Source: Desulfuromonadaceae bacterium (lineage in GTDB: Bacteria > Desulfobacterota > Desulfuromonadia > Desulfuromonadales > JAAYDE01). Taken from it: a stretch of DNA of 44,908 bases. Numbering within the stretch: the stretch's first letter is position 1; each line of letters opens with the position of its first letter. The stretch lies in assembly GCA_012512925.1 (NCBI GenBank), contig JAAZDE010000140.1, positions 1 to 44,908 on the forward strand. Reading direction: 5' to 3'. The position numbers and the translations under genes were made by a program. Below the pieces are notes generated by a model. The model was not told the origin of the DNA, did not search any database, and saw only the letters and a list, made by a program, of their open reading frames with translations. Shown piece by piece: positions 158 through 27,776 of the stretch.

Positions 158-282
158 TACACAATTTAAACCTTCCGGGAAGGGGAGTAAGCAACAAAAA
201 ATTTGAGCCGAACAAATGGCATGTTCGCCGGAATAAGTTGTGCTCCATTGATTTTCCAAAAAGAATGGGAGGATTCCGGAAA

Positions 283-855
283 ATGGAATTGTTCGACGCG
301 GAAAAAATCTGCAGAAGAAATTTTTTAAAAATTTGCCTTTTCGGCGGCGCCGCCATGGCGCTTCCGGTCGATGCCCTGGCCAAGGCGGTCAAGAAAAAGA
401 CCTCCAGGGAAAAGATCTTAACCCTCTACAACCCCAATACCGGTGAATATTTAAAGGATATAGCCTTCTGGAAAAACGGTTCATATCTCACCCCCGAGAT
501 AAAAGAAATCAACCGGTTTTGCAGGGATTTTCGGAACGATGAGGTCACCTCCATCGATAAAAAACTTCTGGATATGCTTTACGATATCCACCAGAAGTTC
601 CCTTCGAAAAATTCGAAAATCATCCTCGTCTCGGCCTACCGTTCACCTGAAACCAACACCTTTCTGCGAAAAACCGGCCATAGGGTAGCCAAAAGAAGTT
701 ACCATATGGAAGGGAAGGCTTTCGACGTTCGTATCGAAGGGGTGAGCCTGGCCAATTTACGTAAAGTCGCCCTGCGATATGGCCGAGGAGGTGTGGGCTA
801 TTATCCCCGTTCAGGATTTGTTCACATCGACACCGGACCGGTAAGAAGCTGGTAA
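283..855 (+). CDS. MepK/YcbK-like (DUF882, peptidase M15 family) exported murein endopeptidase
   Basis: This 190-residue protein probably hydrolyses peptide cross-links in periplasmic peptidoglycan. The C-terminal half carries the LAS/M15 zinc-site pattern: His141 and Asp148 in SYHMEGKAFDVR, and His181 in FVHIDTGP, preceded by SAYRSPETN. E. coli MepK is the characterised relative and cuts 3-3 cross-links; the substrate here is inferred. The N terminus has a twin-arginine motif (RRNFLK, residues 11-16) followed by a short hydrophobic stretch, so Tat export is likely, as in E. coli YcbK. The ATG at 283 is chosen because GGGAGG (267-272) lies ten bases upstream; an ATG at 265 has no ribosome site. 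The gene is alone on its strand and ends about 200 bases before the candidate dif site. Confidence 0.85.
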   Translation: MELFDAEKICRRNFLKICLFGGAAMALPVDALAKAVKKKTSREKILTLYNPNTGEYLKDIAFWKNGSYLTPEIKEINRFCRDFRNDEVTSIDKKLLDMLYDIHQKFPSKNSKIILVSAYRSPETNTFLRKTGHRVAKRSYHMEGKAFDVRIEGVSLANLRKVALRYGRGGVGYYPRSGFVHIDTGPVRSW

Positions 856-1056: not shown

Positions 1057-1084
1057 ATGTCGCATAATATATATTATGTAAACT
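1057..1084. other. candidate dif site (XerC/XerD recombination site)
   Basis: A 16-base perfect palindrome, CATAATATATATTATG (1063-1078), sits inside a 28-base segment that matches the E. coli dif sequence at 21 of 28 positions by my hand alignment. The XerC-side core CGCATAAT and the XerD-side TTATGTAAACT, close to the consensus TTATGTTAAAT, are separated by a 6-base centre. The match includes the two inward-facing arm cores that define dif sites in proteobacteria. The site lies 26 bases beyond the recG stop codon, in intergenic DNA. The gene to the left is on the plus strand and the 13 kb to the right is all on the minus strand, so transcription converges here, as expected at a replication terminus. 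I did not search for other copies. A Xer-using mobile element could carry a similar site, but no such element is visible. Confidence 0.72.
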
Positions 1085-1109
1085 TATGGCCCCAAATATA
1101 GGATGGCCA

Positions 1110-3278
1110 TCAGCCGATGGCAGCCAGCTCGAGTCTGGTTCCCCAGCGCCGCTGGAGCGTTCTTCGGGTCTTTTCCAATTCCGGTGAGGTGAAAAAATCT
1201 GAACGACCGGCGACCTGGAAAGCTTCCTCTCGGGCGATCGCCAGAATTTCCTGATGCTTTAGGATGCTGGCGACCCGAAAATCCACCAAACCATGCTGTC
1301 TGGTTCCCAGCAGTTCACCTGGACCCCGGATCTCCAGATCCGCTTCGGCGATGCGAAAGCCGTCCGCCGTCTCTTTCATGACCTGAAGACGCTTCCTGCC
1401 ATCGTCACTGATGGATCGGGACGCAATCAGGATACAAACGCTTTCCTGCCGGCCTCTGCCGACCCGTCCCCGCAATTGATGAAGCTGGGACAAGCCGAAA
1501 CGGTCGGCATTTTCAACCATCATCACCGTGGCATTGGGGATATCGATGCCAACCTCGATCACCGTGGTAGCCACCAGAATATCCAGATCGTGGTCCCTGA
1601 ACCGCTTCATGATGTCTTCTTTTTCCGCCGGCTTTAACCGGCCATGAAGCAGTCCAACCCTGAAAGTTGGAAAAATTTCATTTTTCAGAAGGATGAAATC
1701 CTTTTCCGCCGCTTGCAGCTCGGAATTCTGCGATTCTTCGATTAAGGGGTAGACGACAAAGGCCTGGCGACCCCCGGCCAGTTCTTCCCTCACCATGCGA
1801 TAAGCCGTCTCCCGATGTCCCACCGGGAATATCATGGTTTTGACCGGTTTTCTCCCCGGCGGCAATTCATCGATAATCGAAAGCGAGAGATCCCCATAGG
1901 CCGTCATGAACAGAGATCGAGGAATCGGCGTGGCGGTCATGACCAGCGTGTCCGGATGGGTTCCCTTGTTGCGCAAACCACCCCTCTGCAGCACTCCAAA
2001 GCGATGCTGTTCATCGATAACAACCAATCCCAATCGGGGAAAGTCAACCTCATCCTCCAGAATGGCATGGGTACCGACAAGCAGGTGGATTCGGCCGGCG
2101 GACAAGTCGCCCAGGATATTTTCTTTTTCCCTTTTAGCGATGGATCCGGTAAGGAGGGCCGCCTTCAGGCCCAGGTCGTCCAGATATCGGTGAAACTGCA
2201 GGAAATGCTGCTCGGCGAGGATTTCCGTCGGCGCCAGTACGGCCACCTGGAAATTGTTTTCGATGGCGATCAGGGCGGCCATCAGGGCGACTATGGTCTT
2301 GCCGCTGCCGACATCGCCCTGAAGGAGACGGTTCATCGGACTTGAAGCCATCATGTCCTGCTTGATTTCACCCAATACCCGCCGCTGGGCGGTCGTTAAA
2401 CGATAGGGTAATTTTTCCGCCAGAGGCTTTGTGTAAAGATGGGTAACCTGGAAGGCATTTCCCGGGATCTGGCTGATATCCCTTTTCTTCAAGGCCAAAC
2501 CCAGTTCCAGATAAAAAAATTCATCAAAAATGATACTTTTTCTGCCAGAAGAAATGTCCCCAGCCATTTCCGAAGATGAAATACTTTTTTGGAAGGTTTT
2601 GGGAAAATGGACCTCCAGAAAAGCCTCGGCCAAAGGAGGCAACTGAAGTCGCCGGAGGATTTCAACCGGAATGGTGCTGGAAACGGAAGAGGCATGCTTT
2701 TCAACCACTTTTTTCCAGATGCGGCGGGCCATTTTCTGGCTCAACCCTTCCGTCAGAGGATAGACCGGCAAAATCCCTCCCCAAAAATCGGAATCATTGC
2801 AACCGGATGAGGCATTATCACCCAGGGAATTGGTTTTACTGATTATTTCATATTCCGGATGTTCGATCTGGCGAACACCTCCAAAGAGTTTGATTTCTCC
2901 GAATATATGAAGGTGACAACCGACAGGAAATTCCTTTTCCATCCAGGGACGGCGGTAATGGAACCATTTCAGATCGACCTTGCCGCTGCCGTCACCCGCC
3001 AAAACGTGAAAGATCCTTTTCCGGGTGCGAGGATGGACATTCTCCCCCTTGGCCAGCACTTCCACCCGGAAAACGCCCCTTTCACCGGGAAGGGCGGAGG
3101 CAAGCGGACGGATGTTACGGCGATCCTCATATCTCAGGGGGAGAAAATAAAGGGCATCCTCCACAGTGCGGATGCCCAGCTTGGATAGTTTGAGAAGAAT
3201 TTGCGGCCCGACTCCAGGGATGGAGTCCATAGGAATGGAGGAAAGGTCAGGATTGAGGCCGGAAAGGGCTGCTGACAT
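1110..3278 (-). CDS. recG: ATP-dependent DNA helicase RecG
   Basis: RecG is a superfamily 2 helicase that remodels stalled replication forks and branched DNA (Holliday junctions, R- and D-loops). At 722 residues it is slightly longer than the E. coli protein (693). The N-terminal wedge/OB region is followed by helicase motifs that can be read directly: Walker A GDVGSGKT, DEQH box in VIDEQHRFGVLQR, motif III TATPIPRSL, and QLRGRVGRGR near the C terminus. The start at 3278 has a purine-rich ribosome site (GGGGAGGGGAG) directly upstream. It is the last gene of the pyrR-to-recG series and lies 77 bases after greA. A small hairpin GCCATC-GGCT-GATGGC spans its stop codon but lacks a T-run, so it is not a clear terminator. 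Confidence 0.97.
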   Translation of the reverse strand: MSAALSGLNPDLSSIPMDSIPGVGPQILLKLSKLGIRTVEDALYFLPLRYEDRRNIRPLASALPGERGVFRVEVLAKGENVHPRTRKRIFHVLAGDGSGKVDLKWFHYRRPWMEKEFPVGCHLHIFGEIKLFGGVRQIEHPEYEIISKTNSLGDNASSGCNDSDFWGGILPVYPLTEGLSQKMARRIWKKVVEKHASSVSSTIPVEILRRLQLPPLAEAFLEVHFPKTFQKSISSSEMAGDISSGRKSIIFDEFFYLELGLALKKRDISQIPGNAFQVTHLYTKPLAEKLPYRLTTAQRRVLGEIKQDMMASSPMNRLLQGDVGSGKTIVALMAALIAIENNFQVAVLAPTEILAEQHFLQFHRYLDDLGLKAALLTGSIAKREKENILGDLSAGRIHLLVGTHAILEDEVDFPRLGLVVIDEQHRFGVLQRGGLRNKGTHPDTLVMTATPIPRSLFMTAYGDLSLSIIDELPPGRKPVKTMIFPVGHRETAYRMVREELAGGRQAFVVYPLIEESQNSELQAAEKDFILLKNEIFPTFRVGLLHGRLKPAEKEDIMKRFRDHDLDILVATTVIEVGIDIPNATVMMVENADRFGLSQLHQLRGRVGRGRQESVCILIASRSISDDGRKRLQVMKETADGFRIAEADLEIRGPGELLGTRQHGLVDFRVASILKHQEILAIAREEAFQVAGRSDFFTSPELEKTRRTLQRRWGTRLELAAIG

Positions 3279-3355
3279 CTCCCCTCCCCTTCTTGAGGGA
3301 ACAACCGCTGCCGCCGGAACCGGTTGCGCAGTTCAGGCCTTGACGGACAATTCCG

Positions 3356-3835
3356 TTATTCATAGCAGATATTGATGATTTCGTAGATGCGGGTTCCCGA
3401 CGGAACCTCGATATGGACTTCGTCGTCAAGGAGATGGCCGATCAGGGCTCGTCCCACCGGAGAGGTCACGGAGATCTTTCCTTCTTTCAGGTCGGCTTCG
3501 TCCTCCCCGACCAGCTGATAGGTCACTTCATTGTCCATCTGGACATCAAACAGGGTGACCTTGGCGCCGAAAACCACCTTGTCCGAATTTTTGTATTCGG
3601 CAGGGTTGATGACCTGGGCACGGGATATTTTGGAGCTCAGTTCCTTGATTCGTCCTTCAACGAAACTCTGGTGGTCCTTGGCGGCCTCATATTCGGCATT
3701 TTCAGACAGGTCTCCATGGCCGCGCGCTTCGGCGATGGCCTGGACGGCGTTGGGGCGCTCCACCCGGAGAAATCTTTTCAGTTCTTCCTGGAGGCGTTGA
3801 TAGCCCTCCTGGGTCATGGGGATGAAATCATCCAT
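3356..3835 (-). CDS. greA: transcription elongation factor GreA
   Basis: GreA binds the secondary channel of RNA polymerase and stimulates cleavage of backtracked transcripts. The 159-residue length matches the family. The N-terminal coiled coil bears the tip motif GDLSENAEYEAAK, with acidic residues Asp42 and Glu45 that coordinate the catalytic magnesium. The C-terminal FKBP-like domain includes SVTSPVGRALIG. The ATG at 3835 is preceded by AGGAGAGGA (3841-3849) at five bases. It follows carB by 93 bases that contain a strong hairpin. Location between carB and recG suggests co-transcription, though its own promoter cannot be excluded. Confidence 0.96.
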   Translation of the reverse strand: MDDFIPMTQEGYQRLQEELKRFLRVERPNAVQAIAEARGHGDLSENAEYEAAKDHQSFVEGRIKELSSKISRAQVINPAEYKNSDKVVFGAKVTLFDVQMDNEVTYQLVGEDEADLKEGKISVTSPVGRALIGHLLDDEVHIEVPSGTRIYEIINICYE

Positions 3836-3860
3836 TTTTTTCCTCTCCTGAAAATGGATG

Positions 3861-3878
3861 GGGCGGGTTTCCCCGCCC
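3861..3878 (-). other. intercistronic hairpin with GAAA tetraloop between carB and greA
   Basis: In the transcript the arms GGGCGGG and CCCGCCC (seven GC pairs) enclose a GAAA tetraloop, a very stable GNRA-type hairpin. No T-run follows, so it is not a standard intrinsic terminator. It may protect or process the mRNA between the carB and greA portions. Function is inference only. Confidence 0.5.
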
Positions 3879-3928
3879 GGCGTTTATAAATGTGGATAAA
3901 AAAATATCCTGTCGCAACCTTGAGAGAT

Positions 3929-7192
<3,264 letters not shown>

Positions 7193-7223
7193 GGCTGATT
7201 TCCAGATGACCTTTCCGCGAAAG

Positions 7224-7250
7224 CAAAATAAAAGCGCCGGTATCAGCGCT
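7224..7250 (-). terminator. weak terminator-like hairpin between carA and carB
   Basis: In the transcript AGCGC and GCGCT form a five-base stem with an eight-base loop, followed by TTTTATTTT. The 5' arm overlaps the carA stop codon. The stem is short, so it would terminate only partially if at all. It could set the ratio of carA-carB read-through. Confidence 0.35.
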
Positions 7251-8367
7251 GTTTCTCTTTTTCCATCATGTCGACGAAACGCCCGAAAAGGTAGCGGGCG
7301 TCATGAGGGCCGGGCGAAGCCTCGGGGTGGTACTGCACCGAAAAAACGGGAAGGGTCTTATGGACCAAGCCTTCCAGAGTATTGTCATTGAGGTTGATAT
7401 GGGTCAGTATCGCTTCATCCGTGACGGAATCGCCCCGGACGGCGAAGCCGTGATTTTGGGAGGTGATCTCCACGCAGGGCCCCTCCCCTCTGCGAACCGG
7501 CTGATTGCCCCCGCGATGACCGAACTTGAGCTTGAAAGTTTGACCGCCAAGGGCCAGACCGATCAGCTGGTGCCCCAGGCAAATACCGAAGATCGGTTTT
7601 TTGCCGAGAAGTCGCCGGATGTTGTCCTGGGCATAAACAAGCGGCTCGGGGTCGCCAGGGCCGTTGCTGAGAAAAATGCCATCCGGTTTCATGGCCAGCA
7701 CCTCTTCGGGGGGAGTGGTGGCTGGGACCACAATCACCTCGCACCCCAGGGAAACCAGGTTGCGCAAAATGTTGCGTTTGATGCCGAAATCGTAGGCAAC
7801 GACCCGGTAACGGAACCCCCCGGTGGGGTTTTCATAGCCTCCGTCCAGATTCCACAAACCTTCCGTCCAGCGATAGGGTTCCTTGCAGGTGACTTCCCTG
7901 ACCAGGTCGCGGCCGACCAAATGGGGAGACCGGCGGGCTTTCTCGACAACGCGCGCGGGGTCGGGGTCGACGGTGGAAATGAATCCCGTTTGGGCTCCCC
8001 GGTTGCGGATATGGCGGACCAGGGCCCGCGTGTCCACATCCCAGATGCCGACGATGCCGCATCTTTTCAGATAATCGTCAAGGGTTTCACGGCTCCGCCA
8101 ATTGGAGGGGAATCGGCAGTATTCCTTGACGACAAAGCCGGCCAGGTGGGGATGCCGCGATTCCACGTCCTCGGGATTGGTGCCGCAGTTGCCGATCAGA
8201 GGATAGGTCATGGTGACGATCTCCCCCCGATAGGAAGGATCGGTGAGAATTTCCTGATAACCGGCCATACTGGTGTTGAAAACCACTTCGCCGCAGGATT
8301 CCCCTTCGGCCCCAAAGGACTTGCCGATAAAGTAACGGCCGTCTTCCAGCGCAAGAATTGCTTTCAT
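7243..8367 (-). CDS. carA: carbamoyl-phosphate synthase small (glutaminase) subunit
   Basis: CarA hydrolyses glutamine and channels ammonia to CarB. The class I glutamine amidotransferase domain in the C-terminal half shows the nucleophile elbow [10 protein letters not shown] and the His/Glu pair in [13 protein letters not shown]. The N-terminal CPSase_sm domain starts at [13 protein letters not shown] and includes [13 protein letters not shown]. The start at 8367 (374 residues) is preferred over an upstream in-frame extension because AGGAGA lies just before it and the extension would run into pyrC. The gap to pyrC is 28 bases. Confidence 0.97.
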
Positions 8368-8395
8368 CTTCTCCTTTTGACTCTCATTGGTGAAA

Positions 8396-9670
8396 TCAGG
8401 TTCGGCAAAATACGGTTTTTCCCCCGACCAGGGTGCGGTGAACCACTCCCGGCAGTTCCCAGCCGGCAAAGGGGGTGTTGCGGCCTTTGGATAAAAAGCC
8501 CCGGGGATCGACCGTCCATTTCTCCTCCGGATCGAAAATGACGATGTCGGCCGCGGCCCCGTCTCGAAGGCTGCCTCCCGGAAGGGACAGAACCCGGGCC
8601 GGGCCGCAGGACAATTTGTCCACCGCTTCGGACAAGGTGAGGACCTTCTTCTCGACCAGTCTCAGGGTGAGAGACAGGGCGGTTTCCAGACCCACGATGC
8701 CATTGAGGGCCAGATTGAATTCGACGTTCTTTTCGTCCCGGTGGTGGGGAGCGTGGTCGGTGGCGATGACATCGATGGTGCCGTCCGCCAGGCCCCGCCA
8801 CAGGGCCTCGATGTCCTCCTGGAGGCGCAGGGGAGGAGACATCTTGGCGTTGGTGTCGTAGCCCCGCACCGCCTCCTCGCTCAGGGTGAGGTGATGGGGG
8901 GTCGCCTCGCAGGTAACCAGAACGCCTGCCATTTTGGCGCCGCGGATGATATCCACCGATCCCCTGGTGGAGATATGGCAGATGTGAAGCCGGGTTCCGG
9001 TCAGGGCGGCCAGCATGACGTCACGAAACACCGCCGCATCCTCCGCAACCCAGGGAATCCCCTTGAGCCCCAGGTCGGTAGCGACAAACCCCTCGTTCAT
9101 CACCCCTCCGGCGGTCAGGGTGGTATCCTCGGCATGACTCACCAGGGGAACCCCGAAGGGCTTCACGTATTCCAGCGCCCGCCGCATCAGATCACCGTCC
9201 GCAACCCATCGGCCATCGTCGGAGAAGGCGACGCAACCTGCGGCAGTCAGTTCCCCCATTTCGACGAGAGTCTCACCTTTCAGTCCTTTGGTAATCGCGC
9301 CGATGGGGTAGACCCGCACCAACCCGTCGCGCAGAGAGCGATTTTTGATGTATTCGGTGACCGCCAGGGTATCGTTGACCGGAGCCGTGTTGGGCATGCA
9401 GGCCACCGCGGTAAAACCGCCGGCTGCCGCCGCCCGGGTCCCGGAGGCGATGTCCTCCTTGTATTCCTGCCCGGGATCACGCAGATGGACATGGATGTCG
9501 ATAAGTCCTGGGGCGACCACCAGCCCTTCCGCATCGATCACCTCGGCATCGTCATCGGCGATCGACCCACCCTGCCTGGCGATAAAACCATCGACGATTA
9601 AAATGTCGAGAATTTCATCCCTTCCCCGCGACGGGTCGACCACCCTCCCCTTCCTGATTACTGTTTTCAT
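8396..9670 (-). CDS. pyrC: dihydroorotase, class I
   Basis: Third step of UMP synthesis: interconverts carbamoyl aspartate and dihydroorotate. The protein has 424 residues, the size of class I dihydroorotases rather than the shorter E. coli type. Metal-binding motif [16 protein letters not shown] and the later TDHAPH and HICHIST motifs are clear. The start at 9670 ([13 protein letters not shown]) fits the family, with AGGA upstream; a longer in-frame reading would overlap pyrB heavily. It begins 23 bases after the pyrB stop. An adjacent class I pyrC and pyrB may form a complex in some bacteria; nothing here proves it. Confidence 0.96.
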
Positions 9671-9693
9671 GTCGTCCGTTCCTGTCTGACTTT

Positions 9694-10626
9694 TTATGGA
9701 TTGTCGGCAACCGGGCCACTGACCAGGTAAAGCAGGGCCATGCGCACGGCGACGCCGTTTTCGACCTGTTCCAGAATCACATTCTGGCCTCCGTCGGCCA
9801 CATCGGAACAAATTTCCACACCCCGGTTCATCGGCCCCGGGTGCATGACCAGGGCATCTTCCCTGGCCAGTTGCAGCTTGTCCCGGTTGAGGCCGTAAAA
9901 TCGGGCGTATTCCCGCAGGGAGGGAAGCAGAGAACGCCCCTGCCGCTCCAGCTGGATTCGCAGCATCATCACCACATCCGCCCCCGCCAGGGCCTCTTCC
10001 ATACTGGTGAAAACCTCGCATCCAAGCTTTTCGATGCCGGGAGGGATCATGGTCCCGGGACCGGCCAGACGAACCCTGGCCCCCATGGTGGTGAGGGCGA
10101 AAAGATTGGAGCGGGCGACACGGCTGTGGGTGATGTCGCCAATGATGGTCACGGTCAGACCCCTGATCCTTCCCCTGTGCTGACGCATGGTAAAGAGATC
10201 GAGGAGGGCCTGGCTGGGATGTTCATGGGCGCCGTCGCCGGCGTTGATGATGGAGCAGTCGAGCCGTCTGGCCAGATAGTCGGCGGCGCCTGATGCGGAA
10301 TGGCGGATGACGATGATGTCGGGACGCATCGCTTCGATGTTTCTGGCCGTGTCTTCCAGAGTCTCCCCCTTGACCACGGAGGAAGAGGAGGCGGAAATGT
10401 TGACGGCGTCGGCGGAAAGGCGTTTTTCGGCGATTTCAAAGGAGGTGCGGGTGCGGGTGGAGGCTTCGTAAAAAAGGTTCACCACCGTCTTGCCGCGCAG
10501 CGTCGGCACTTTCTTTATGTCGCGGGTGTTGATCTCCTTGAAACTCTCGGCCGTGTCCAGGATCATGGTGATGTCCTGAGCGGAAAGCTGCCGGGTGCCA
10601 AGAATATGCTTGTGCAAAAAGGTCAT
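9694..10626 (-). CDS. pyrB: aspartate carbamoyltransferase catalytic subunit
   Basis: PyrB condenses carbamoyl phosphate with aspartate. The 310-residue protein has the carbamoyl-phosphate binding motif [13 protein letters not shown] and the HPSQALLDL motif. Aspartate-binding and C-terminal [11 protein letters not shown] sequences are also present. No pyrI regulatory subunit lies nearby, so feedback control at this enzyme is probably absent and PyrR attenuation is the visible control. The gene begins 19 bases after the pyrR stop codon and is followed closely by pyrC. Confidence 0.97.
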
Positions 10627-10645
10627 GGCAGATTTTCCTTTCCCT

Positions 10646-11188
<543 letters not shown>

Positions 11189-11233
11189 TCACTTCTTTCG
11201 TTGTGAATAAAAGGATATTTCTGGATCCAGGCC

Positions 11234-11267
11234 AAAAAAAAACCTTTCCGCTAAAAAACGGAAAGGT
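11234..11267 (-). terminator. pyr leader intrinsic terminator (attenuator)
   Basis: In the transcript ACCTTTCCG and CGGAAAGGT form a perfect nine-pair stem with an eight-base loop, followed directly by nine T. It stands between the promoter and pyrR, the position expected of an attenuator. Confidence 0.92.
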
Positions 11268-11307
11268 CGCAATGGTTCCGGAATGTCTTTGTTGCTGGGG
11301 GCCTGCC

Positions 11308-11342
11308 ACCTTTGCTAACCTCTCGGGATTAACTTAAAAGGG
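11308..11342 (-). promoter_or_regulatory. PyrR-binding anti-antiterminator element
   Basis: The box AATCCCGAGAGGTT (11317-11330, minus strand) fits the published PyrR loop consensus ARUCCNGNGAGGYU at all 14 positions. It is flanked in the RNA by CCCTTT (11342-11337) and AAAGG (11313-11309), which can pair and present the box in a hairpin. The same AAAGGT (11313-11308), continued as gGC, can pair with GCgACCTTT, the 5' arm of the downstream terminator, which gives the competing antiterminator. All three states of a PyrR switch can thus be drawn. Pairings are by eye; no folding energies were computed. Confidence 0.88.
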
Positions 11343-11365
11343 ACATCGAGTTTCTTGTCTGAAAA

Positions 11366-11394
11366 ACTATAGCAGGGCGTCACCGAGGGATCAA
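11366..11394 (-). promoter_or_regulatory. pyr operon promoter
   Basis: On the minus strand TTGATC (11394-11389) and TATAGT (11371-11366) are separated by exactly 17 bases. Transcription would start near 11359, giving a leader of about 175 bases before pyrR that contains the PyrR element and terminator. Confidence 0.75.
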
Positions 11395-11413
11395 CAACAA
11401 ATTTTTTTCACCT

Positions 11414-12505
11414 TCAGTAAATGGGGCGTCCGATCCGCTCCCAGCGGGGGTGGCCTTTTTCTTGATCCCAGGACCAGTATTTCACCAGCGCCCGTCCCCT
11501 GATCTTGGTGTGATCGACAAAACCCCAGAAGCGGCTGTCAAAGGATCGGTCGCGGTTGTCCCCCAGAGTGAAATATTTCCCCGGGGGCACCCGGGTAGCC
11601 CGCATAAAATCCCGTACTGACACCTCGGGTGGCAGAACATCTTTTTCCTTATGGATCTCCTGCGGGAAAATCAGCGGTTGGCCGTTGACGTAGATCTTTT
11701 TGTTGCGAATCTCCACTACATCCCCAGGAATGCCGATGATCCTTTTGATAAAATCGCGGCGCTTGAGATAGGGTTCGTCAGCATCCTGGGGAAATTCGAA
11801 AACGATGACATCCCCCCGGTCCGGCTCACTGATCCGTAAAATTTCCCGGTCGAGAACCGGTATCCGGGTGCCATAGATAAATTTGTTGACCAGCAGATGG
11901 TCTCCTACCAGCAATGTATCTTCCATCGACCCGGAAGGGATCTTGAATGCCTGGACAAAGTAGATGCGAATGAAAACCGCCAGCACCAAAGCCACGAAGA
12001 GGGCTTCGAAAAGCTCAAAACGTTTGTTGGCCTGTCGGAAAAGTTGACGATCGGGGTTGAAGGTTCCTTTGCTGATCCTTTTCTCCAGGGTTGAGGAAAG
12101 AAAGATCACCAACAGGTCGCCGGGGACACCCGAGGTCAGAGCGAGGAGAAGAAAGCCAAGTAGATATCTTCCCATAACCTGGTCGGAAGTAAAATGAAAG
12201 TTGAAGATGGCATCGGTACAGAAAAAAGCCAGAACGGAATGAACCAGCAAACAGATCAGGGCGGTTATTTTGGCCGTGCGGACATGTTTGAGGTTTTCTT
12301 TCTGGAGGATGAGATAGGACAAGGTCAAAAAAAAGGCCGAGGAGATCAGGAGCGCCGTCAGTAAAATGATTCCCAGGGTGCCGGGGACGGTGTAAAACGG
12401 AAAAAGGACCCAGAATGTGCCCTGAAAAAGGCAGATCAGCCCCAAAAGGCGCATTTTCAGATAATCGTTCGACTGGAGGTCGGATTTGCCGGAACCTTGT
12501 CCCAT
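11414..12505 (-). CDS. lepB: signal peptidase I with an extra N-terminal membrane domain
   Basis: LepB removes signal peptides from exported proteins at the outer face of the inner membrane. The catalytic core occupies about residues 165-363: a membrane anchor, the box with Ser193 in IPSGSMEDTL, the general base Lys254 in FIKRIIGIPGD, and GDNRDRSFDSRFWGF. Ahead of it lie about 160 residues with four or so hydrophobic segments (roughly 18-40, 43-67, 78-96 and 113-138), which ordinary LepB proteins of about 220 residues lack. The ATG at 12505 follows the lepA stop by three bases, and no better start lies between the extension and the core, so the extension is probably translated. Pairing with lepA is the common arrangement. 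Confidence 0.93.
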   Translation of the reverse strand: MGQGSGKSDLQSNDYLKMRLLGLICLFQGTFWVLFPFYTVPGTLGIILLTALLISSAFFLTLSYLILQKENLKHVRTAKITALICLLVHSVLAFFCTDAIFNFHFTSDQVMGRYLLGFLLLALTSGVPGDLLVIFLSSTLEKRISKGTFNPDRQLFRQANKRFELFEALFVALVLAVFIRIYFVQAFKIPSGSMEDTLLVGDHLLVNKFIYGTRIPVLDREILRISEPDRGDVIVFEFPQDADEPYLKRRDFIKRIIGIPGDVVEIRNKKIYVNGQPLIFPQEIHKEKDVLPPEVSVRDFMRATRVPPGKYFTLGDNRDRSFDSRFWGFVDHTKIRGRALVKYWSWDQEKGHPRWERIGRPIY

Positions 12506-12508
12506 TTG

Positions 12509-14311
12509 TCAGGTCTCTTTCACTTTCAGAATGGCCAGGAAAGCTTCCTGGGGAATTTCCACCTTACCGATCTGCTTCATCCGCTTTTTCCCCTCTTTTT
12601 GCTTCTCCAGCAGTTTCCGCTTGCGGGTGATATCGCCTCCGTAACACTTGGCGGTGACATCCTTGCGCAGCGCCTTGACGTTCACCCTGGCGATGACCTT
12701 GTTGCCGGTGGCGGCCTGGATGGCCACCTCATATTGCTGGCGGGGAATGAATTCCTTCATCTTGACGATCAGATCCCGCCCCCGCTGGGAAACGTTGTCC
12801 CGGTGGACGATCAGCGACAGGGCGTCGACCGGCTCGCCGTTGATGAGAATATTGAGGCGAACCAGTTGACTGGACCGGTAATCGAGAAACTCGTAATCAA
12901 GGGAAGCGTAGCCGCGGGAAATGGATTTCAGCCGATCGTAGAAATCAAGGACGATCTCGTTGAGGGGCAATTCGTAAACCACGATCACCCGATCGGAGGT
13001 CAGATATCGGATTTCGTTCTGAATGCCTCTTTTTTCTTCGCAAAGGGCCAGCACCACGCCGACATATTCGTGAGGAAGATGGATGGAGGCGCGTATGAAA
13101 GGCTCCTCGATGCGGGCGATATGCTGTTCTTCCGGGAGTTTGGTGGCGCTGTCGACCCGAATCGTCTTGCCGTCGGTGGTATAGACAAAATAGACGACGG
13201 TCGGGGCCGTGGTGATCAGGGAAATACCGAATTCCCTTTCCAGACGTTCCTGGATGATCTCCATATGGAGCAAACCAAGGAAGCCGCAGCGGAAACCGAA
13301 ACCGAGAGCGACGGAAGTCTCCGGCTCGAATGAAAAAGAGGAATCGTTGAGCCGAAGCTTTTCCATGGCGTCCCGCAAGGCGTCGTAATCCCCCGGATCG
13401 ATGGGGTAAAGGCCGCTGAAGACCATCGGTTTCACTTCCTTGAAGCCGGGCAGGGGTTGTGCCGCCGGGCGGTGAAAATGGGTGATGGTTTCCCCCACCT
13501 TGGCATCCTGGACCACCTTGATTCCGGCGATGAGAAAACCGACCTCCCCCGCCCCCAAGGTTTTGCATTCTACGGGATGGGGGCTGAAAACACCCACCTT
13601 CAACACCTCATAACTCTTTTTGTTGGCCATCAGGAGAATCTTGTCTCCCTTGGCGACAACCCCATCGACGACACGGATCAGGATGATAACCCCCTGGTAG
13701 GGATCGTACCAGGAGTCGAAGATGAGCGCCTTGAGCGGCGCTTCGGGGTTGCCTCTGGGAGGCGGAATCCGCTGCACCAGAGCTTCCAGGATATCCTCGA
13801 TGCCGATCCCCTCCTTGGCGCTGGCCTCGATGGCGTCGTGGGCGTCGATGCCGATGATCTCCTCGATCTCCTGGCGGGCTTTTCCCGCATCGGCGCTCGG
13901 CAGGTCGATCTTGTTGAGCACCGGGAACACCTCCAGGTTCTGATCGATGGCCAGATAGACATTGGCCAGGGTCTGAGCCTCCACCCCTTGCGACGCGTCC
14001 ACCACCAGCAGCGCTCCTTCGCAGGCATAAAGAGAGCGGCTGACCTCGTAGGAAAAATCGACATGACCGGGCGTATCGATCAGATTGAGGATGTAATCCC
14101 GCCCGTCCCTGGCCCGGTAGGTCAGACGGACGGCCTGAGCCTTGATTGTGATCCCCCGTTCCCGTTCCAGTTCCATCTTGTCCAGAAACTGATCGGTCCG
14201 TTCCCGAATGGTCAGGGCGCCGGTCGCCTCCAGAAGACGGTCAGCCAGGGTCGACTTGCCGTGATCGATATGGGCAATGATGGAAAAATTGCGGATAAAT
14301 TTCTGATCCAT
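12509..14311 (-). CDS. lepA: elongation factor 4 (LepA) ribosomal GTPase
   Basis: LepA is a translational GTPase related to EF-G that acts on the ribosome during initiation or stalled elongation. Its 600 residues show G1 [11 protein letters not shown]2 region ERERGITI, G3 DTPGHVDF, G4 NKID, and the LepA-specific C-terminal domain ending in basic [15 protein letters not shown]. The start at 14311 ([10 protein letters not shown]) matches the family; an upstream TTG at 14359 has no ribosome site. The ribosome site for 14311 is also weak. It is followed with a three-base gap by lepB. Confidence 0.97.
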
Positions 14312-14552
14312 AGTTTTCAGCCGTGTGACCGTGTGAAGATTCCGCAGAAAAAGACTCAAATAAGCAACTTACAAAAAAGAGATGGTCTTGTAAAGACAAT
14401 AGAATTTTTCAATTATGGCAAATAAAGGAGGGCTTTTTTTGAAAAGTTCCACTTAATCTTTAAAAGAGACGCTTATTTTTAAATTTTTTCTGGCTGGAAG
14501 GTTTAAAAAATAATACGATTTTCCCACGGGGATAATAAGCGGAGATACCCCC

Positions 14553-14582
14553 TTGCCAAAATTTTCCTTTTAACGGTAGGAT
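14553..14582 (+). promoter_or_regulatory. candidate promoter for the acyl-CoA synthetase gene
   Basis: TTGCCA (14553-14558) and TAGGAT (14577-14582) are 18 bases apart, about 37 bases before the ATG. It lies in the AT-rich 308-base divergent region 14312-14619, which also must contain the lepA promoter; I could not pick that one with confidence. Nothing else is seen in this gap. Confidence 0.4.
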
Positions 14583-14619
14583 GTGCCAATTTTTTTAAAA
14601 AAATCAGGGATGGACCTTC

Positions 14620-16491
14620 ATGAAAACCATTGATGGACAAATTTATGAGTCCTGTCTCAAAATGGGGGACAAGGCCGCTTTCCAACAGAAGATTGGGAAT
14701 ATCTGGCAATCCTTTTCCTACCGCTCTTTGTGGACGGAATCCGAGCAGATCACTTCCGGGCTGCAAAAGTCGGGAATCAAAAAAGGCGACAGGGTCGCCA
14801 TCCTGGCCGTTCCTTCCTGCCGCTGGGTCACCGCTTATCTGGCCATTCTCAAATCCGACGGTATCGTGGTACCTATCGACAAGGAGCTCAAGGCCGGGGA
14901 GATCCGTCATATCCTGACCGATTGCGAAGCCAGAATTGTTTTCACCGAGGAAACCTATCTGGACACCCTGGTTTCCCTGGTGGCGGATCTCCCCAAACTG
15001 GAAAAAATCGTCATCATGCATCCGGATGGGGACAAGAAGATCGCCGACCCGGTCATGGAAATGATGGTTGATGACCTGGTTTCAGAATGGCGGCGGATTT
15101 CCCAGAAATATGAACTGCCCAAGGAAGAAATCACCAACTTCGAACAATTGGCCGACAAGTTCTACCTCTTCCTGCAAAAACAGGGGTCCTCTTCAGGATC
15201 CAGGAACGGTTTCGGCGGCCATCTTCTCGGAGGTCAGGAGATTCAGGTGAGGCGTCTTTTCAAGAAAAGGCGCCTGGAATATCTGAGCGGCTTCCGTCAG
15301 GAGGAGCCCCCCCTCCCCCCGCAGCATCACCCCTCCGATCCGGCCGTGATCATTTACACCTCCGGCACCACGGGACGCTCCAAAGGAGCCATTCTCTCCC
15401 ATTCCAACATCATGTCCAATGTCTACACGGGAATCGACCTCTATCGTCTCACCGATAAGGTCCATATGCTCTCGGTTCTGCCCATACACCATATTTTTGA
15501 ACAAGTGTTGGGGATCATCCTTCCTCTTACCCTCGGCGGGACCGTATCCTTTGTCGAATCCCTTAAAAAGATCGGCCCCAACCTTCAGGAAGTGCAACCC
15601 AACTTCATGTTGGGTGTGCCTGCCCTCTACCGGATTTTTTTCAACCGCATCCGCAAGAAAATCGAAGACAACCATGTGTTGAAAATGCTTTTTTCCCTTC
15701 CCGGAACCAACAAGATTGTCAAGGGTAAGATACTCAAGTCGATGGGTGGCGGCGAGATGATCTTCATCAGCGGCGGAGCGGCCCTGGATCCGGAAATCCA
15801 GGGAGGTTTGAAAAAATTCGGCCTGACTATCTATCAAGGCTACGGGATCACCGAAACCTCCCCGGTGGTTTCGGCGGAATCCCCTTTCTTCCAGCGCCTC
15901 GGCTCGGTGGGTAAAGTTCTGCCCGGTGTCGAGGTCAGGATTGTCGACCCCAACGATGAGGGTGTGGGGGAGATTCTGATCAAGGGACCCAATGTCATGC
16001 AGGGATATCACAATAATCCCAAAGCCACCGAAGATGTGCTCCGGGACGGCTGGTACTACAGCGGTGACCTGGGACGTCTCGACGCCGACGGATATCTTTA
16101 CATCTGCGGCCGGCTCAAAAACCTCATCGTTACCCCCAACGGCAAGAACGTTTACCCCGAAGAGGTGGAGGAAGAACTTCTCAAGAGTGATTTCATCGCT
16201 GAAGTCATGGTTTACGGCCACAAGATCGACAAGACCGCAGAGGAGGTCTATGCCCTGATCTATCCCAACCAGGAGGCCGTTGACAACTATGCCCGGGAGG
16301 CGGGGAAAACGCCGTTCGGCTCCCAGGAAATGGAGGAGTTGATCCGCCGCGAAGTGCTGGAACACTCCAAAAACCTGGCCGATTACAAACGGATCAAAAA
16401 ATTCTCCCTGCGCGAAGATGAATTCCCCAAAACCACCACCAGGAAAATCAAGCGTTTCGTCGTCGAACCCGACATCGCCGCTTTGGAATGA
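14620..16491 (+). CDS. AMP-forming long-chain acyl-CoA synthetase
   Basis: Activates fatty acids to acyl-CoA through an acyl-adenylate. The 623-residue protein has the ATP/AMP motif YTSGTTGRSKGA near residue 246, GYGITETSP near 407, and YSGDLGRLDADGYL plus GRLKNLIVTPNGKN in the C-terminal part. This is the ANL superfamily, long-chain (FadD/FAA1-like) subgroup. A low-complexity linker around residues 188-240 separates the N-terminal region from the P-loop and varies in this family. No transport or beta-oxidation genes adjoin it. It could serve membrane lipid recycling rather than catabolism. It ends at a strong bidirectional terminator. Confidence 0.9.
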   Translation: MKTIDGQIYESCLKMGDKAAFQQKIGNIWQSFSYRSLWTESEQITSGLQKSGIKKGDRVAILAVPSCRWVTAYLAILKSDGIVVPIDKELKAGEIRHILTDCEARIVFTEETYLDTLVSLVADLPKLEKIVIMHPDGDKKIADPVMEMMVDDLVSEWRRISQKYELPKEEITNFEQLADKFYLFLQKQGSSSGSRNGFGGHLLGGQEIQVRRLFKKRRLEYLSGFRQEEPPLPPQHHPSDPAVIIYTSGTTGRSKGAILSHSNIMSNVYTGIDLYRLTDKVHMLSVLPIHHIFEQVLGIILPLTLGGTVSFVESLKKIGPNLQEVQPNFMLGVPALYRIFFNRIRKKIEDNHVLKMLFSLPGTNKIVKGKILKSMGGGEMIFISGGAALDPEIQGGLKKFGLTIYQGYGITETSPVVSAESPFFQRLGSVGKVLPGVEVRIVDPNDEGVGEILIKGPNVMQGYHNNPKATEDVLRDGWYYSGDLGRLDADGYLYICGRLKNLIVTPNGKNVYPEEVEEELLKSDFIAEVMVYGHKIDKTAEEVYALIYPNQEAVDNYAREAGKTPFGSQEMEELIRREVLEHSKNLADYKRIKKFSLREDEFPKTTTRKIKRFVVEPDIAALE

Positions 16492-16508
16492 CAGCGGTCT
16501 GAAATATA

Positions 16509-16556
16509 AAAAAAGACAACGGTTCCGCCGCCTGAGGAGGAACCGTTGTCTTTTTT
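16509..16556. terminator. large bidirectional intrinsic terminator
   Basis: Perfect inverted repeat of 18 bases (AAAAAAGACAACGGTTCC at 16509-16526 and its complement at 16539-16556) with a 12-base loop. The A-run on the left and T-run on the right make it an intrinsic terminator on both strands, serving the convergent acyl-CoA synthetase and Fe-S genes. Confidence 0.93.
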
Positions 16557-16608
16557 GGGGCGGGCTTCGAACCGTTTCCAGTTTCAGAAGCGGCTTTCTG
16601 CAGCGGCG

Positions 16609-17883
16609 TCACCCATATTTCCGACTTAAATGCTCCAGGTAACGGGAGCGCACCTGCTGGCTTGCCATGAGACGTTTGACCGGCGGCAGACCCAACAGAA
16701 CCCCCAGCACCGCTCCAAGGATGCGATGACTCAAAAGCACCTGGTTGTCGAAGATGAGATTCTGGAGTTTGCCCCGTTCCAGCGCCATCAGGACCACCCG
16801 GTGAGTTGAATTGAGCGGCGGGATGATCCGCGTACCCCGTTCCCGGAAGCGAATGGCGCCATTGGGGCAGATGCGGTGGCAGATGCCGCAGCCGAGGCAA
16901 TCCTCCTCGTGGAGAACCACCTTGGGCAGCCCCTCGCCGGTTTCAACATGGTCATAAGAAACTGCCTCCACCGGGCAATATTTCATGCACAAGCCGCAGC
17001 CGATACATTTTTCCGGATCGATTTCAGGCAGATAGTTGCTGGTATGGATCGGATTGAGAACGCCGAACCGTCGGGCCGCGTTCATCGCCTCGCAGCAGCA
17101 GCGGCAACAGTTACAGATAAAACTGATACCTTCGCGGGCATTCTCCCCGAACTGGATCAGATTGTAGTCATAGGCCTGGGCCAGGAGATCGAGACATTCC
17201 GAAGCATCCACCCTCCTGGCGGCGCCATGGCGGATAAGAGAAGCCGCCGGAGCGTTGAAGGTCATGCAGATATCCTGAGGAGCGTCACAGGCTTGTCCGA
17301 CATGCTCCTTTTTATGGCGGCAGAAACAGAGACCGATGCCGATGTCGGAGGCGGAGCGGATCACTTCACTGGCCCGATCATAATCCAGCACGTGAAGGCT
17401 GTCTTCTTCGGCGATGGCCGGCTCATGGACGAAGATCCGTCCCATTTGGGTTTTTCCACCGCCGAACAAAGCTTTGGAAAAATCCTCCTCCTGGTCCAGG
17501 TAGTTTTCCAGCAACCGGCTGAGCAGTTTTTTGTCGAGGTTCCCTCCGCTGCGCATCAGGCTGAATTCAAAAAAACCCGCCATCGGTGGAGGAAGAAGAT
17601 AGAGGACGCTTCCATCCTCCTTTTCCAGATCGAGCAGAATGGAGCGGGAAGCCAAAGCCTCTAATGTGTTCCGGGCCTCATCCAGACCAACCTTCCAGAT
17701 ACGGGCCGCCTTGCCCACCGTAAAGGGACGGATGGGAAGCTGCGCCACCAGAGCGGCTTCCCTTTCACTGAACAGCAGTTCGAGGATTTCGTAAAGCAGG
17801 CGCGAAGGAGGGGCTCCGAGCGGAAAGCGGTTCAGCCGTTCGACCAGGTTGGAATATCCTTTTTTAAGCGTATGATGGGCCAT
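16609..17883 (-). CDS. cysteine-rich 4Fe-4S protein with winged-helix-like N terminus
   Basis: Function unknown; a probable electron carrier or redox sensor. Of 424 residues, about 35-110 look like a small winged-helix fold (TVGKAARIWKVGLDEA then a beta-hairpin). A first cysteine cluster has C186-x-C188 with C199 and C206; a second, ICNCCRCCC, holds six cysteines between 257 and 264. Two classical ferredoxin motifs follow: C293/296/299/303 and C329/332/335/339. Related Fe-S proteins with the same three blocks occur in anaerobes, to my knowledge without an assigned role. The C-terminal region (380-400) is hydrophobic and might associate with membrane. The start at 17883 has AAGGA six bases upstream. 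It is monocistronic by appearance. Confidence 0.8.
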   Translation of the reverse strand: MAHHTLKKGYSNLVERLNRFPLGAPPSRLLYEILELLFSEREAALVAQLPIRPFTVGKAARIWKVGLDEARNTLEALASRSILLDLEKEDGSVLYLLPPPMAGFFEFSLMRSGGNLDKKLLSRLLENYLDQEEDFSKALFGGGKTQMGRIFVHEPAIAEEDSLHVLDYDRASEVIRSASDIGIGLCFCRHKKEHVGQACDAPQDICMTFNAPAASLIRHGAARRVDASECLDLLAQAYDYNLIQFGENAREGISFICNCCRCCCEAMNAARRFGVLNPIHTSNYLPEIDPEKCIGCGLCMKYCPVEAVSYDHVETGEGLPKVVLHEEDCLGCGICHRICPNGAIRFRERGTRIIPPLNSTHRVVLMALERGKLQNLIFDNQVLLSHRILGAVLGVLLGLPPVKRLMASQQVRSRYLEHLSRKYG

Positions 17884-18037
17884 GCAAATCCTTTGCGGTA
17901 AAAATTTTTCCGGGAACCGGATGGGTCGTGGGATCGTCCAAACAGGACCATAAGCGATCCATTATGTTCAGGATATTCCTTCATGACAAGAGAAAACTCG
18001 TCCCTTCATCCTTCCTTCGAATGACAAGCCCCCGAGG

Positions 18038-18066
18038 TTGCGAATCCACTTTTTATCAGCTAGATT
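18038..18066 (+). promoter_or_regulatory. candidate promoter for the hemerythrin/LigD-PE pair
   Basis: TTGCGA (18038-18043) and TAGATT (18061-18066) lie 17 bases apart, 117 bases before the hemerythrin start. The 299-base divergent region 17884-18182 holds no other clear feature. Confidence 0.4.
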
Positions 18067-18182
18067 TTAAACGGTATCCCCATTTCCTGTACTGGTCACA
18101 CCTGGGCACCGCTGAAAAGATGCTCCCAAGGCAACACATTCAGCTTTCACTGAGGAATGATCCGACATCGGAAAGGACAGGG

Positions 18183-18716
18183 ATGAGTATCATTGAGAAG
18201 ATTCGTCGTGAACACCAGGAAAGCCTCGCCAGTCTCAAGGAGATGTCGCAACTGGCCCGTCACCTGGAAAAGGGCGCTCCCCTGAAGGTGGAACAGGTCC
18301 TCGACGTAGTTGCTTCGACTCTGGATTTCAACAATCGATGTCACCACTTCAAGGAAGAAAAGCTCTTCCAGCTTTTGGCCCTGAAACTGGACGAAAATGA
18401 GATCCCGCTTCTGATGGAGTTGGAAGCGGAACATAAAGCCTCCGATGAGCTGCTTAAAAACATTAACCGCCAGATTCTGCAGACCGTACCGCAAATACCA
18501 CTTCTGAAGAACCGTATAGTGGAAATTCTGTGGACCTTTGTCGAACTCAACCGCAGGCATATCGACAAGGAGGAAAAACGGTTCCTTCCTCTTTTTGAAG
18601 GACTCGTCACGCGGGACGAACAGGTCCACTTGTTGGAATATTTCCAGCCCAGGCAATCCACTGGTCCGATCCTGACCCTGCCGACGGTCAGCAGCTACCT
18701 TTCCAAAGAATTATGA
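18183..18716 (+). CDS. hemerythrin-like domain protein
   Basis: A 177-residue all-helical protein of the hemerythrin/HHE family, which can bind a di-iron centre and act in oxygen or nitric oxide sensing or iron storage. Candidate ligands follow the family order: His11 in REHQESL, the HH and EE of CHHFKEEKLF, the His in EAEHKASDEL, and NRRHIDKEEKRFLPLF near the end. The ATG at 18183 is used because AAGGA lies five bases upstream; an in-frame reading extends 85 codons further upstream but shows no family similarity. Its stop overlaps the start of the LigD-type phosphoesterase (ATGA), so the two are translationally coupled. Confidence 0.82.
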   Translation: MSIIEKIRREHQESLASLKEMSQLARHLEKGAPLKVEQVLDVVASTLDFNNRCHHFKEEKLFQLLALKLDENEIPLLMELEAEHKASDELLKNINRQILQTVPQIPLLKNRIVEILWTFVELNRRHIDKEEKRFLPLFEGLVTRDEQVHLLEYFQPRQSTGPILTLPTVSSYLSKEL

Positions 18717-19312
18717 GCGACTCAAAACCACTTTATGTGTATCGGCAAAAACGCAATTTCCAAAAGACCGCCGAACCCTATGGGAAACATCCCGGCCCCG
18801 GTGAAGCTCCCATATTCGTCGTTCAAAAACATCAGGCTTCGACCCTTCATTACGACTTCCGCATAGAGGTTGACGGTGTGCTCAAATCCTGGGCCATACC
18901 CAAAGGCCCTTCGCTTGACCCCAAAGATAAAAGACTGGCTGTCCCTACCGAGGACCACCCTTTTGACTATGCCGATTTCGAAGGAACCTTTCCCGAAGGG
19001 GAATACGGCGGAGGAACCGTCCTGATCTGGGATGAAGGAACCTACAGCCTCTTGCCGGACAAAAAAGGGGAACTCATCCCTGTTCAGGAGGGTCTGGAAA
19101 AGGGTCATGTGACGATTTTCCTCCACGGGAAAAAACTCAAGGGTGGCTTCGCCCTGAAACGATTCAAAACCGGCAAGGATGAAGCCTGGCTGCTGATCAA
19201 GATGGCGGATGAGGAGGCCACGACGGACAGGAACCCGGTTCGGGACGAGCCGCTGTCGGGGCGCAGCGGAAAATCCCTGGAACAGGTGGCGAAAGAAGCC
19301 GCAACCCGGTGA
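18713..19312 (+). CDS. stand-alone LigD-type DNA 3'-phosphoesterase
   Basis: A 199-residue protein consisting of the PE domain of bacterial DNA ligase D, which trims 3'-ribonucleotides and 3'-phosphates at DNA ends. All six residues reported to form the metal and substrate site of Pseudomonas LigD PE have counterparts at a constant offset of two: His40, His46, Asp48, Arg50, His82 and Tyr86 (QKHQASTLHYDFRIE; HPFDYADFEG). The glycine-rich PEGEYGGGTV motif follows. No ligase or polymerase domain is attached and no ku gene lies in the window, so it may work in a different repair route or with a distant NHEJ locus. It overlaps the upstream hemerythrin gene by four bases. Confidence 0.9.
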   Translation: MSDSKPLYVYRQKRNFQKTAEPYGKHPGPGEAPIFVVQKHQASTLHYDFRIEVDGVLKSWAIPKGPSLDPKDKRLAVPTEDHPFDYADFEGTFPEGEYGGGTVLIWDEGTYSLLPDKKGELIPVQEGLEKGHVTIFLHGKKLKGGFALKRFKTGKDEAWLLIKMADEEATTDRNPVRDEPLSGRSGKSLEQVAKEAATR

Positions 19313-19351
19313 GGGTCCAATCCGCCTCCTGGATGGGGAAATATATTGATC

Positions 19352-19380
19352 TTGACGGATCGATCCCTATTTTCTAGTCT
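19352..19380 (+). promoter_or_regulatory. candidate promoter for the SDR epimerase gene
   Basis: TTGACG (19352-19357) and TAGTCT (19375-19380) are separated by 17 bases, in the 162-base gap before the ATG at 19475. Confidence 0.4.
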
Positions 19381-19474
19381 TTCTCCGGGCACATTATTCT
19401 TTTTTATTTTCCCGGGGTCGGCCGACACCAATTCCCATTGTTGGCGGCCTCAATAAAGACGGGGAGGAACGAAA

Positions 19475-20404
19475 ATGAAAATTCTCATTACCGGTGGCTG
19501 CGGCAACATGGGCGGCCATGTGGCCAGGGTTTTCGCGCAGGAGGGACATGAGGTCCGGGTGTTCGACAAGAATGCCGAAGGGCTTAAAAAGCTGGCCGCT
19601 ACCGGGGTGGAAACAGTAGCCGGCGACCTCTCCGACAAAAATCTGATCGAGACTGCCGTCCAGGGCGTCGATGCCGTCCTCCATCTGGCCTGGAGTTTCT
19701 CCGAAGACCTGGTGGATCTTATCGACATAGACGTCAAAGGGTATAAATATCTTCTCGACGCCGCGGTGGAGCAAGGTGTGCAGCATGTCATCAATGCCAG
19801 TACGGCGGTGGCCTACGGAAAACCATTGACCTCGCCGGTGGATGAAACTCATCCCCATCTGGTCGAAAAGGCACGCAAGCCTTCCTACGCCCTGGCCAAG
19901 CTGATCACCGAGGAATTGGGGAAGATCTACTCCGAGAAACACGAACTGGCCGTCAACAACGTGATGATCTGGTATGCCTACGGGGATGAAATAGGGGGCA
20001 AGCATATCCGCGGCATGATCAAGGATGCGATCCAGAAAGGGGTCATCGAGGTTCCGGCCAATAGCGGCGGAAGCTTTCTCCAGTTGGACGATTTCATCAC
20101 CGGGGTCAAAGGTATCATTTCCGCCAGACCCAAGGGGGAGTTGTTCAACCTGGCCACCGTCTATCTTACCTGGGAAGAACTGGCCCAACTGATTATCGCT
20201 CAGGCCAATCCCCAGGCGAAGGTGTTGGCGATCCCCAAAGAGGAATGGACCGGGAGTTCTTTCCTCGCCGACGACTGGCATTTCAGTACCCGCAAGGCGG
20301 AGCAGATGCTCCTTTACCGGACCAGACTGACCAGAGAAAAGGCCATTGCCCATCTTTCCAGGGCCCTGGAAGCCTGCGTGGCCGAGGTCAAAGCCAAAAC
20401 ATGA
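19475..20404 (+). CDS. NAD(P)-dependent epimerase/dehydratase (extended SDR)
   Basis: Extended short-chain dehydrogenase of 309 residues. The Rossmann motif GGCGNMG is at residues 7-13 and the catalytic pattern is Ser109/Thr110, Tyr138 and Lys142 (SYALAK). Substrate cannot be read from sequence; relatives act on nucleotide sugars or sterol-like compounds. GGGGAGGA lies just upstream of the ATG. It stands alone between its own promoter candidate and a clear terminator, so the neighbours give no clue. Confidence 0.85.
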   Translation: MKILITGGCGNMGGHVARVFAQEGHEVRVFDKNAEGLKKLAATGVETVAGDLSDKNLIETAVQGVDAVLHLAWSFSEDLVDLIDIDVKGYKYLLDAAVEQGVQHVINASTAVAYGKPLTSPVDETHPHLVEKARKPSYALAKLITEELGKIYSEKHELAVNNVMIWYAYGDEIGGKHIRGMIKDAIQKGVIEVPANSGGSFLQLDDFITGVKGIISARPKGELFNLATVYLTWEELAQLIIAQANPQAKVLAIPKEEWTGSSFLADDWHFSTRKAEQMLLYRTRLTREKAIAHLSRALEACVAEVKAKT

Positions 20405-20433
20405 CGGCCGCCCCAGCCGTCAAACCCTCCACG

Positions 20434-20461
20434 CCGGGCCCATTTCAGGCCCGGTTTTTTT
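20434..20461 (+). terminator. intrinsic terminator after the SDR gene
   Basis: CCGGGCC (20434-20440) and GGCCCGG (20448-20454) form a seven-pair GC stem with a seven-base loop, followed by seven T. Confidence 0.92.
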
Positions 20462-20467
20462 AATTCA

Positions 20468-20540
20468 TTGATGTCATTCACAAAACTTAAAACAACTTTA
20501 CAGGCGCATCATTGACATCAAAGCGCCTCATGATTAATAA
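20468..20540 (+). promoter_or_regulatory. strong htrA promoter embedded in two inverted repeats
   Basis: TTGACA (20512-20517), a 17-base spacer and TAATAA (20535-20540) form a near-consensus sigma-70 promoter. Two inverted repeats surround the -35 box: TTGATGTCA (20468-20476) with TGACATCAA (20513-20521), and AGGCGC (20502-20507) with GCGCCT (20523-20528). They are candidate operators for a stress regulator; which protein binds is unknown. Confidence 0.68.
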
Positions 20541-20572
20541 AAAGGAAAACCCGTGACCCCATGGAGGACAAG

Positions 20573-21958: not shown

Positions 21959-21996
21959 GATAATATGGTTCCACCGTAGCCAAGCGGCCTTTTCCG

Positions 21997-22030
21997 AGTG
22001 GGCTCCAGCGGTTGCCGGGGCCCACTTTTT
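21997..22030 (+). terminator. intrinsic terminator after the Do protease gene
   Basis: AGTGGGC (21997-22003) pairs with GCCCACT (22020-22026), with further pairing CC/GG inside the loop, and runs into TTTTTCTTTT. Confidence 0.85.
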
Positions 22031-22073
22031 CTTTTCAGCGGTGGCCTGATTTTTTTAACACATCAGGATTTTT

Positions 22074-23108: not shown

Positions 23109-23144
23109 ACCAAATCGGTTGTTCTCGCCTTGTGGAGCCGAAAC

Positions 23145-25296: not shown

Positions 25297-25325
25297 ACTC
25301 TCACCAAAAAATGTGGGTGGACTAC

Positions 25326-25667: not shown

Positions 25668-25706
25668 TGGCGAATTTTTTCTGAATTTTCAAAAGGAGGA
25701 AAAGGA

Positions 25707-26183: not shown

Positions 26184-26247
26184 TTTTCTATTATTTTTTG
26201 TTCTATTTCATTATATTGGGATATTACATCTAATCTATTACATGAAG

Positions 26248-26275: not shown

Positions 26276-26287
26276 AAGATTTGCATC

Positions 26288-27386: not shown

Positions 27387-27390
27387 CCGC

Positions 27391-27729: not shown

Positions 27730-27776
27730 CGCATTTTTTCTCCCTTTCAATATCGGACCCTGGAAGCGAATCAGAA

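Follow-up and report, generated by a model that had tools for sequence, protein, structure and literature searches.

A dif site beside recG

The 28 bp at positions 1057 to 1084 of the contig analyzed here (44,908 nucleotides, referred to as the window) are almost certainly the chromosomal dif site of the source bacterium, a member of the Desulfuromonadaceae. The segment reads ATGTCGCATAATATATATTATGTAAACT on the plus strand and has the 28-bp, 11-6-11 layout of a dif site, with an ATTATGT-type core in its XerD arm; it occurs in single copy in a genome that encodes XerC, XerD, and an FtsK with a gamma domain. The parts of the site are listed below, with the arm boundaries placed by analogy with the dif sites of E. 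coli and B. subtilis.

1057..1084, plus strand: dif site, 28 bp
1057-1067, plus strand: XerC arm, ATGTCGCATAA
1068-1073, plus strand: dif center, TATATA
1074-1084, plus strand: XerD arm, TTATGTAAACT
1063..1078, no strand: perfect 16-bp palindrome, CATAATATATATTATG, inside dif, formed by the inner part of both arms and the center

A preliminary description of this DNA had reported a 28-base segment here that shares 21 positions with E. coli dif, contains a perfect 16-base palindrome, and retains both Xer arms; alignment confirms the first of these, and the palindrome and the two intact arms were found as well. Its placing of the site between converging genes also holds, as dif begins 201 bp past a plus-strand gene (238-855) on the left and ends 25 bp from the stop codon of the minus-strand recG gene (1110-3278) on the right.

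The E. coli system of dif, XerCD, FtsK, and KOPS supplies the sequences and the mechanism with which the site is compared. The window resembles that system in its 28-bp, 11-6-11 site (21/28 positions are equal to what we take to be the E. coli dif sequence), in the presence of XerC, XerD, and the FtsK gamma domain in its genome, and in the polarity of GGGNAGGG, but it differs in the neighboring genes and in the center, which is TATATA in the window and TGTATA in E. coli. Against what is presumably the B. subtilis dif sequence, 23/28 positions are equal and the last 17 bases are identical. For Geobacter sulfurreducens PCA, Carnoy and Roten (2009, PMC2731167) reported a chromosomal dif, ACGTCCCATAAGATATATTATGTAAAGT, close to the terminal switch in GC skew. 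With that published sequence as the reference, 24/28 positions of the window 28-mer are equal and the arm layout is the same; G. sulfurreducens and the source bacterium are probably of one class. The XerC arm has CCCATAA in G. sulfurreducens and CGCATAA in the window. The 28-mer is the top match in the window to each of the three references.

In its own 2.6-Mb genome (a draft with completeness listed as 100), the site gave a single match at up to 3 mismatches, and the 17-base stretch comprising the center and the XerD half gave a single match at up to 2 mismatches. The preliminary description had proposed a genome-wide uniqueness check and had named a better dif match elsewhere as a possible refutation; one copy was found, and the genome search returned no better match. 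XerD is encoded on contig C152 (locus L112, 369.5 bits) and XerC on contig C79 (locus L113, 348.0 bits), both above their NCBIfam equivalog cut-offs, and an FtsK with the gamma domain is encoded on contig C24 (99.5 bits against a cut-off of 30.6). With a single copy, this recombination machinery, and the terminal position of the site in relatives described below, the chromosomal dif proposed at the outset is upheld.

With up to 3 mismatches allowed, the 22-base core of the site was recovered from 80 of the 98 relatives from the order, mostly once per genome, against no hits for a reversed-pattern control; the 18 relatives without a core match at 3 mismatches include genomes that are incomplete or diverged. 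Across the class, the core was found in 186/244 genomes, against 3 hits for the reversed control. In a set of 31 different dif sites taken from relatives, the arms are nearly invariant at GTCG, ATAA, and ATTATGT, and likewise at the terminal AAC; these sites were chosen by similarity to the 22-base core, so that conservation is inflated within the core, which does not reach the outer GT and C columns. The site also yields a dif consensus, ACGTCGCATAAKATATATTATGTAAACT, for an order that is probably Desulfuromonadales.

Terminus region and KOPS-like polarity

As the source genome consists of 213 contigs, the position of dif and the skew switch were assessed in relatives alone. Among nine single-contig relatives, eight have dif approximately opposite dnaA, the shorter arc between the two covering 0.482 to 0.498 of the circle (G006, 0.487; G015, 0.484; G022, 0.497; G026, 0.498; G035, 0.489; G043, 0.482; G049, 0.490; G052, 0.496), and in two two-contig assemblies the arc is 0.46 (G053) and 0.43 (G041). 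The ninth single-contig relative (G016, site at G016:C1:851098) has its dif at 0.347 of the chromosome from dnaA, which may reflect uneven arms or a recent rearrangement.

GC skew was sampled in two closed relatives, G006 and G049, with twenty 20-kb samples each. In both, samples ahead of dif have a skew above or close to zero, and most of those beyond it have a skew below zero; an exception in G049, some 100 kb past the site, is a 20-kb sample that is still positive. Within 10 kb of dif in relatives, the skew is too weak to place the switch, and in the window it is approximately flat (mean of −0.007 to the right of dif). The preliminary description had expected the skew extremum to fall at this site; the sign does flip around dif in the two closed relatives, but the window itself shows no such change. 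In closed relatives sharing the site, then, dif is found near the skew switch and opposite oriC, with G016 off-center. The further claim that the window begins at the replication terminus is retained here in the form of the terminus region rather than the exact terminus, because dif marks the place of dimer resolution and not necessarily that of fork meeting (PMC3025954).

KOPS have been described in E. coli (PMC2680272). The KOPS-like motif GGGNAGGG points toward dif on the right side of the site in the window and on both sides in 19 relatives. The arm of the window concerned is as follows.

1085..44908, no strand: arm right of dif with KOPS-like polarity toward dif, 20 CCCTNCCC versus 5 GGGNAGGG on the plus strand (binomial P, 0.004)

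In the loci of the 19 relatives, 42 copies point toward dif and 5 away from it on the XerC side, and 57 point toward dif and 5 away on the XerD side; the XerD-side counts are not independent, as they come from a homologous operon, whereas the XerC side is largely nonhomologous, which makes the 42-versus-5 count the cleaner one. When 12,785 gapped octamers built like it are ranked by polarity, GGGNAGGG comes first (121 versus 15).

By analogy with E. coli, XerC is expected to occupy the arm on the left (1057-1067) of the window site and XerD that on the right (1074-1084), and the cleavage and dimer resolution expected there would take the following course. Once a chromosome dimer has arisen after replication, FtsK, steered by GGGNAGGG motifs pointing to dif, would join the two dif copies, its gamma domain would activate XerD, and XerCD strand exchange within the central TATATA would yield two monomers.

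Genes on either side of the site

The genes adjoining dif in the window are the following.

238..855, plus strand: MepK-type peptidoglycan endopeptidase (M15_2/DUF882), the XerC-side neighbor (NF053624, 202 bits, above cut-off; PF05951)
1110..3278, minus strand: recG, ATP-dependent DNA helicase RecG, convergent with the XerC-side gene (TIGR00643, 712.7 bits; NF008168, 921 bits; both above cut-off)
3356..3835, minus strand: greA-type transcription elongation factor, in the gene run ending at dif (Pfam GreA_GreB N and C domains)
3929..7192, minus strand: carB, carbamoyl-phosphate synthase large chain, predicted from its length, its position by carA, and conserved synteny
7243..8469, minus strand: carA, carbamoyl-phosphate synthase small chain (Pfam CPSase_sm_chain and GATase)

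The minus-strand run of recG, greA, carB, carA, pyrC, and further open reading frames (ORFs) extends to about 14.36 kb in the ORF list, in agreement with the 13 kb of unbroken minus-strand genes noted previously; family searches of the run covered genes other than carB up to about 10 kb. The predicted carB product is 71% identical to that of an ORF adjoining greA-recG in a Desulfuromusa locus (L118), and carB also stands next to greA-recG in relatives. A PyrR binding site (Rfam RF00515; 11234-11345, minus strand; 56.7 bits against a gathering threshold of 54) lies upstream of the pyrimidine genes, and the gene run ending at dif is therefore probably under PyrR attenuation control. On the other side, mepK is likewise the XerC-side neighbor of dif in G001, a relative of the same genus (locus L106, 9103-9720), and it was not found in the loci fetched from the other relatives.

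Integrated elements and alternative explanations

Xer-using elements are present at dif in several relatives. In G052, a 7.6-kb element (L103, 6412-14030) is flanked by a full dif and by a site whose XerD arm is intact and whose XerC arm is foreign, and it carries genes for a Zot-family assembly ATPase and a Rep_trans rolling-circle initiator, a set typical of filamentous phages. The same pattern of a Zot-family ATPase, Rep_trans, and an XerD half-site end recurs over 6.75 kb in G185 (L245, 5300-12066). Smaller inserts with a half-site are found at dif in G015 (L109, 7733-9961), with a G2P-like Rep gene (REP_ORF2-G2P), and in G001 (L106, 9755-11376), with two ORFs, neither of which has a Pfam match; a G2P-like Rep gene (REP_ORF2-G2P) also lies between dif and recG in G045 (L250, 7250-9100). 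Xer-using integrative elements include CTXphi-like and UPphi-like filamentous phages (PMC7307601), and the G052 and G185 elements resemble them in carrying a Zot-family ATPase and Rep_trans between a full dif and an XerD half-site. In some relatives, then, filamentous-phage-like elements have integrated at dif, with a complete site remaining at one end and an XerD half-site at the other. Such elements are seen in relatives only, with no sign of an integrated element in the window.

Long gaps between dif and recG are due partly to integration at dif, and nonmobile gaps also occur, with an M20 peptidase gene in the gap of G052 and G013 and metabolic genes in others. In three assemblies, two contigs share about 100 to 127 bp around the same dif (G009, L099 and L100; G077, L095 and L096; G088, L097 and L098). 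In G088, the XerC-side flanks diverge past the shared stretch, as if strains differed in what adjoins dif.

These elements raise the alternative that the 28-mer is the attachment site of an integrated Xer-using element, either a filamentous phage or another IMEX, with the native dif beyond the contig end. This we consider very improbable. An attachment site of this kind would be marked by another dif, or half of one, where the element ends, as found in G052, G185, G001, and G015, but neither a second site nor a half-site was detected in the source genome. The contig does end 1,056 bp to the left of the site, and dif is found within 300 bp of contig ends in excess (7/26 versus 0.69 expected; P, 9e-7); the excess, however, probably arises from assembly forks at dif and inserted elements and is not a property of the window. 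Moreover, both arms are intact, the spacing of the XerD arm and recG (25 bp) is like that in relatives without an interruption, and the left neighbor, mepK, is shared with G001 of the same genus, whose contig continues for 45 kb.

Still further from what we would credit is a chance palindrome, or a terminator of the recG operon, that resembles dif by accident. In its favor, the site holds a perfect inverted repeat and closely follows the stop codon of recG. Base composition, however, predicts only about 0.001 matches to E. coli dif at 21/28 or better for the window and 0.08 for the whole genome, and 100 shuffles yielded no copies of the site at 3 mismatches. The site is also conserved where genes part dif from recG and in orders in which recG is far away. 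It has neither a G+C stem nor a T run and receives no call in a terminator scan, and on these grounds a terminator role for the palindrome was dropped.

Linkage of dif and recG across the order

The preliminary description had recorded recG as a neighbor of the site; what is added here is the conservation of this arrangement throughout the order, with the XerD arm toward recG. Among the 79 genomes of the order with a dif, 68 have a convergent recG on the XerD side within 10 kb, and the two are linked in 68 of the 69 genomes in which they share a contig. The remaining 11 genomes comprise 10 with dif and recG on separate contigs and one (G020) that is differently arranged. In 29/68, 135 to 200 bp separate the recG domain from dif, the window equivalent being the 25 bp from stop codon to dif. 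In other orders of the class, recG was found within 10 kb of dif in 0/25 genomes, the nearest being 29 kb away; the sampled orders differ from the window in this respect.

On the XerD side, homologues of recG and greA occur in all 19 relatives examined and carB in 17 of them (some loci are cut short), whereas on the XerC side, among the genes in the eight genomes listed, none is common to more than 7 of the 19 relatives. A search of contigs by RecG alignment, with matches from across bacteria, provided a useful match, among the matches listed, in the Desulfuromusa locus L118, where carB-greA-recG is followed by a dif about 1 kb after recG with its XerD arm facing recG. Judged by this locus and by RecG similarity, the window probably belongs to the order Desulfuromonadales. 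In three genomes of genus g4 in family f2 (G004, G024, and G036), the linkage has probably been lost, because dif and recG are on separate contigs, away from contig starts; G045, of the same family, retains it. A literature search covering Geobacter and Pelobacter, with most subscription journals outside its reach, yielded no report that dif and recG are linked.

Throughout the order, the carA-carB-greA-recG run has dif tied to its 3' end. The simplest account, and a sufficient one, is passive retention: on this reading, the linkage persists because the operon stays unbroken, only tens of bases separate it from dif, and tolerated rearrangements are confined to the opposite side of dif. What counts against purely passive retention is that the linkage holds where 0.6 to 9 kb of other sequence fills the gap. 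RecG is a helicase that limits over-replication at fork fusions, and in E. coli it is tied to the terminus. It is conceivable, if unlikely, that the linkage is more than a passive relic and is kept by selection, with a functional benefit either from a RecG helicase gene beside the terminus or from operon transcription, RecG dosage, or the operon 3' end acting on dif.

The site itself is an ordinary dif of a well-known kind; its order-wide attachment to the recG operon is less ordinary, a small extra for specialists. The site locates the terminus region within a fragmented genome, and in this group Xer-using, phage-like elements are encountered in the gap between recG and dif. The linkage may also help to explain how one side of dif can stay fixed while the other changes, and the tie between RecG and the terminus in E. 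coli makes it a testable question.
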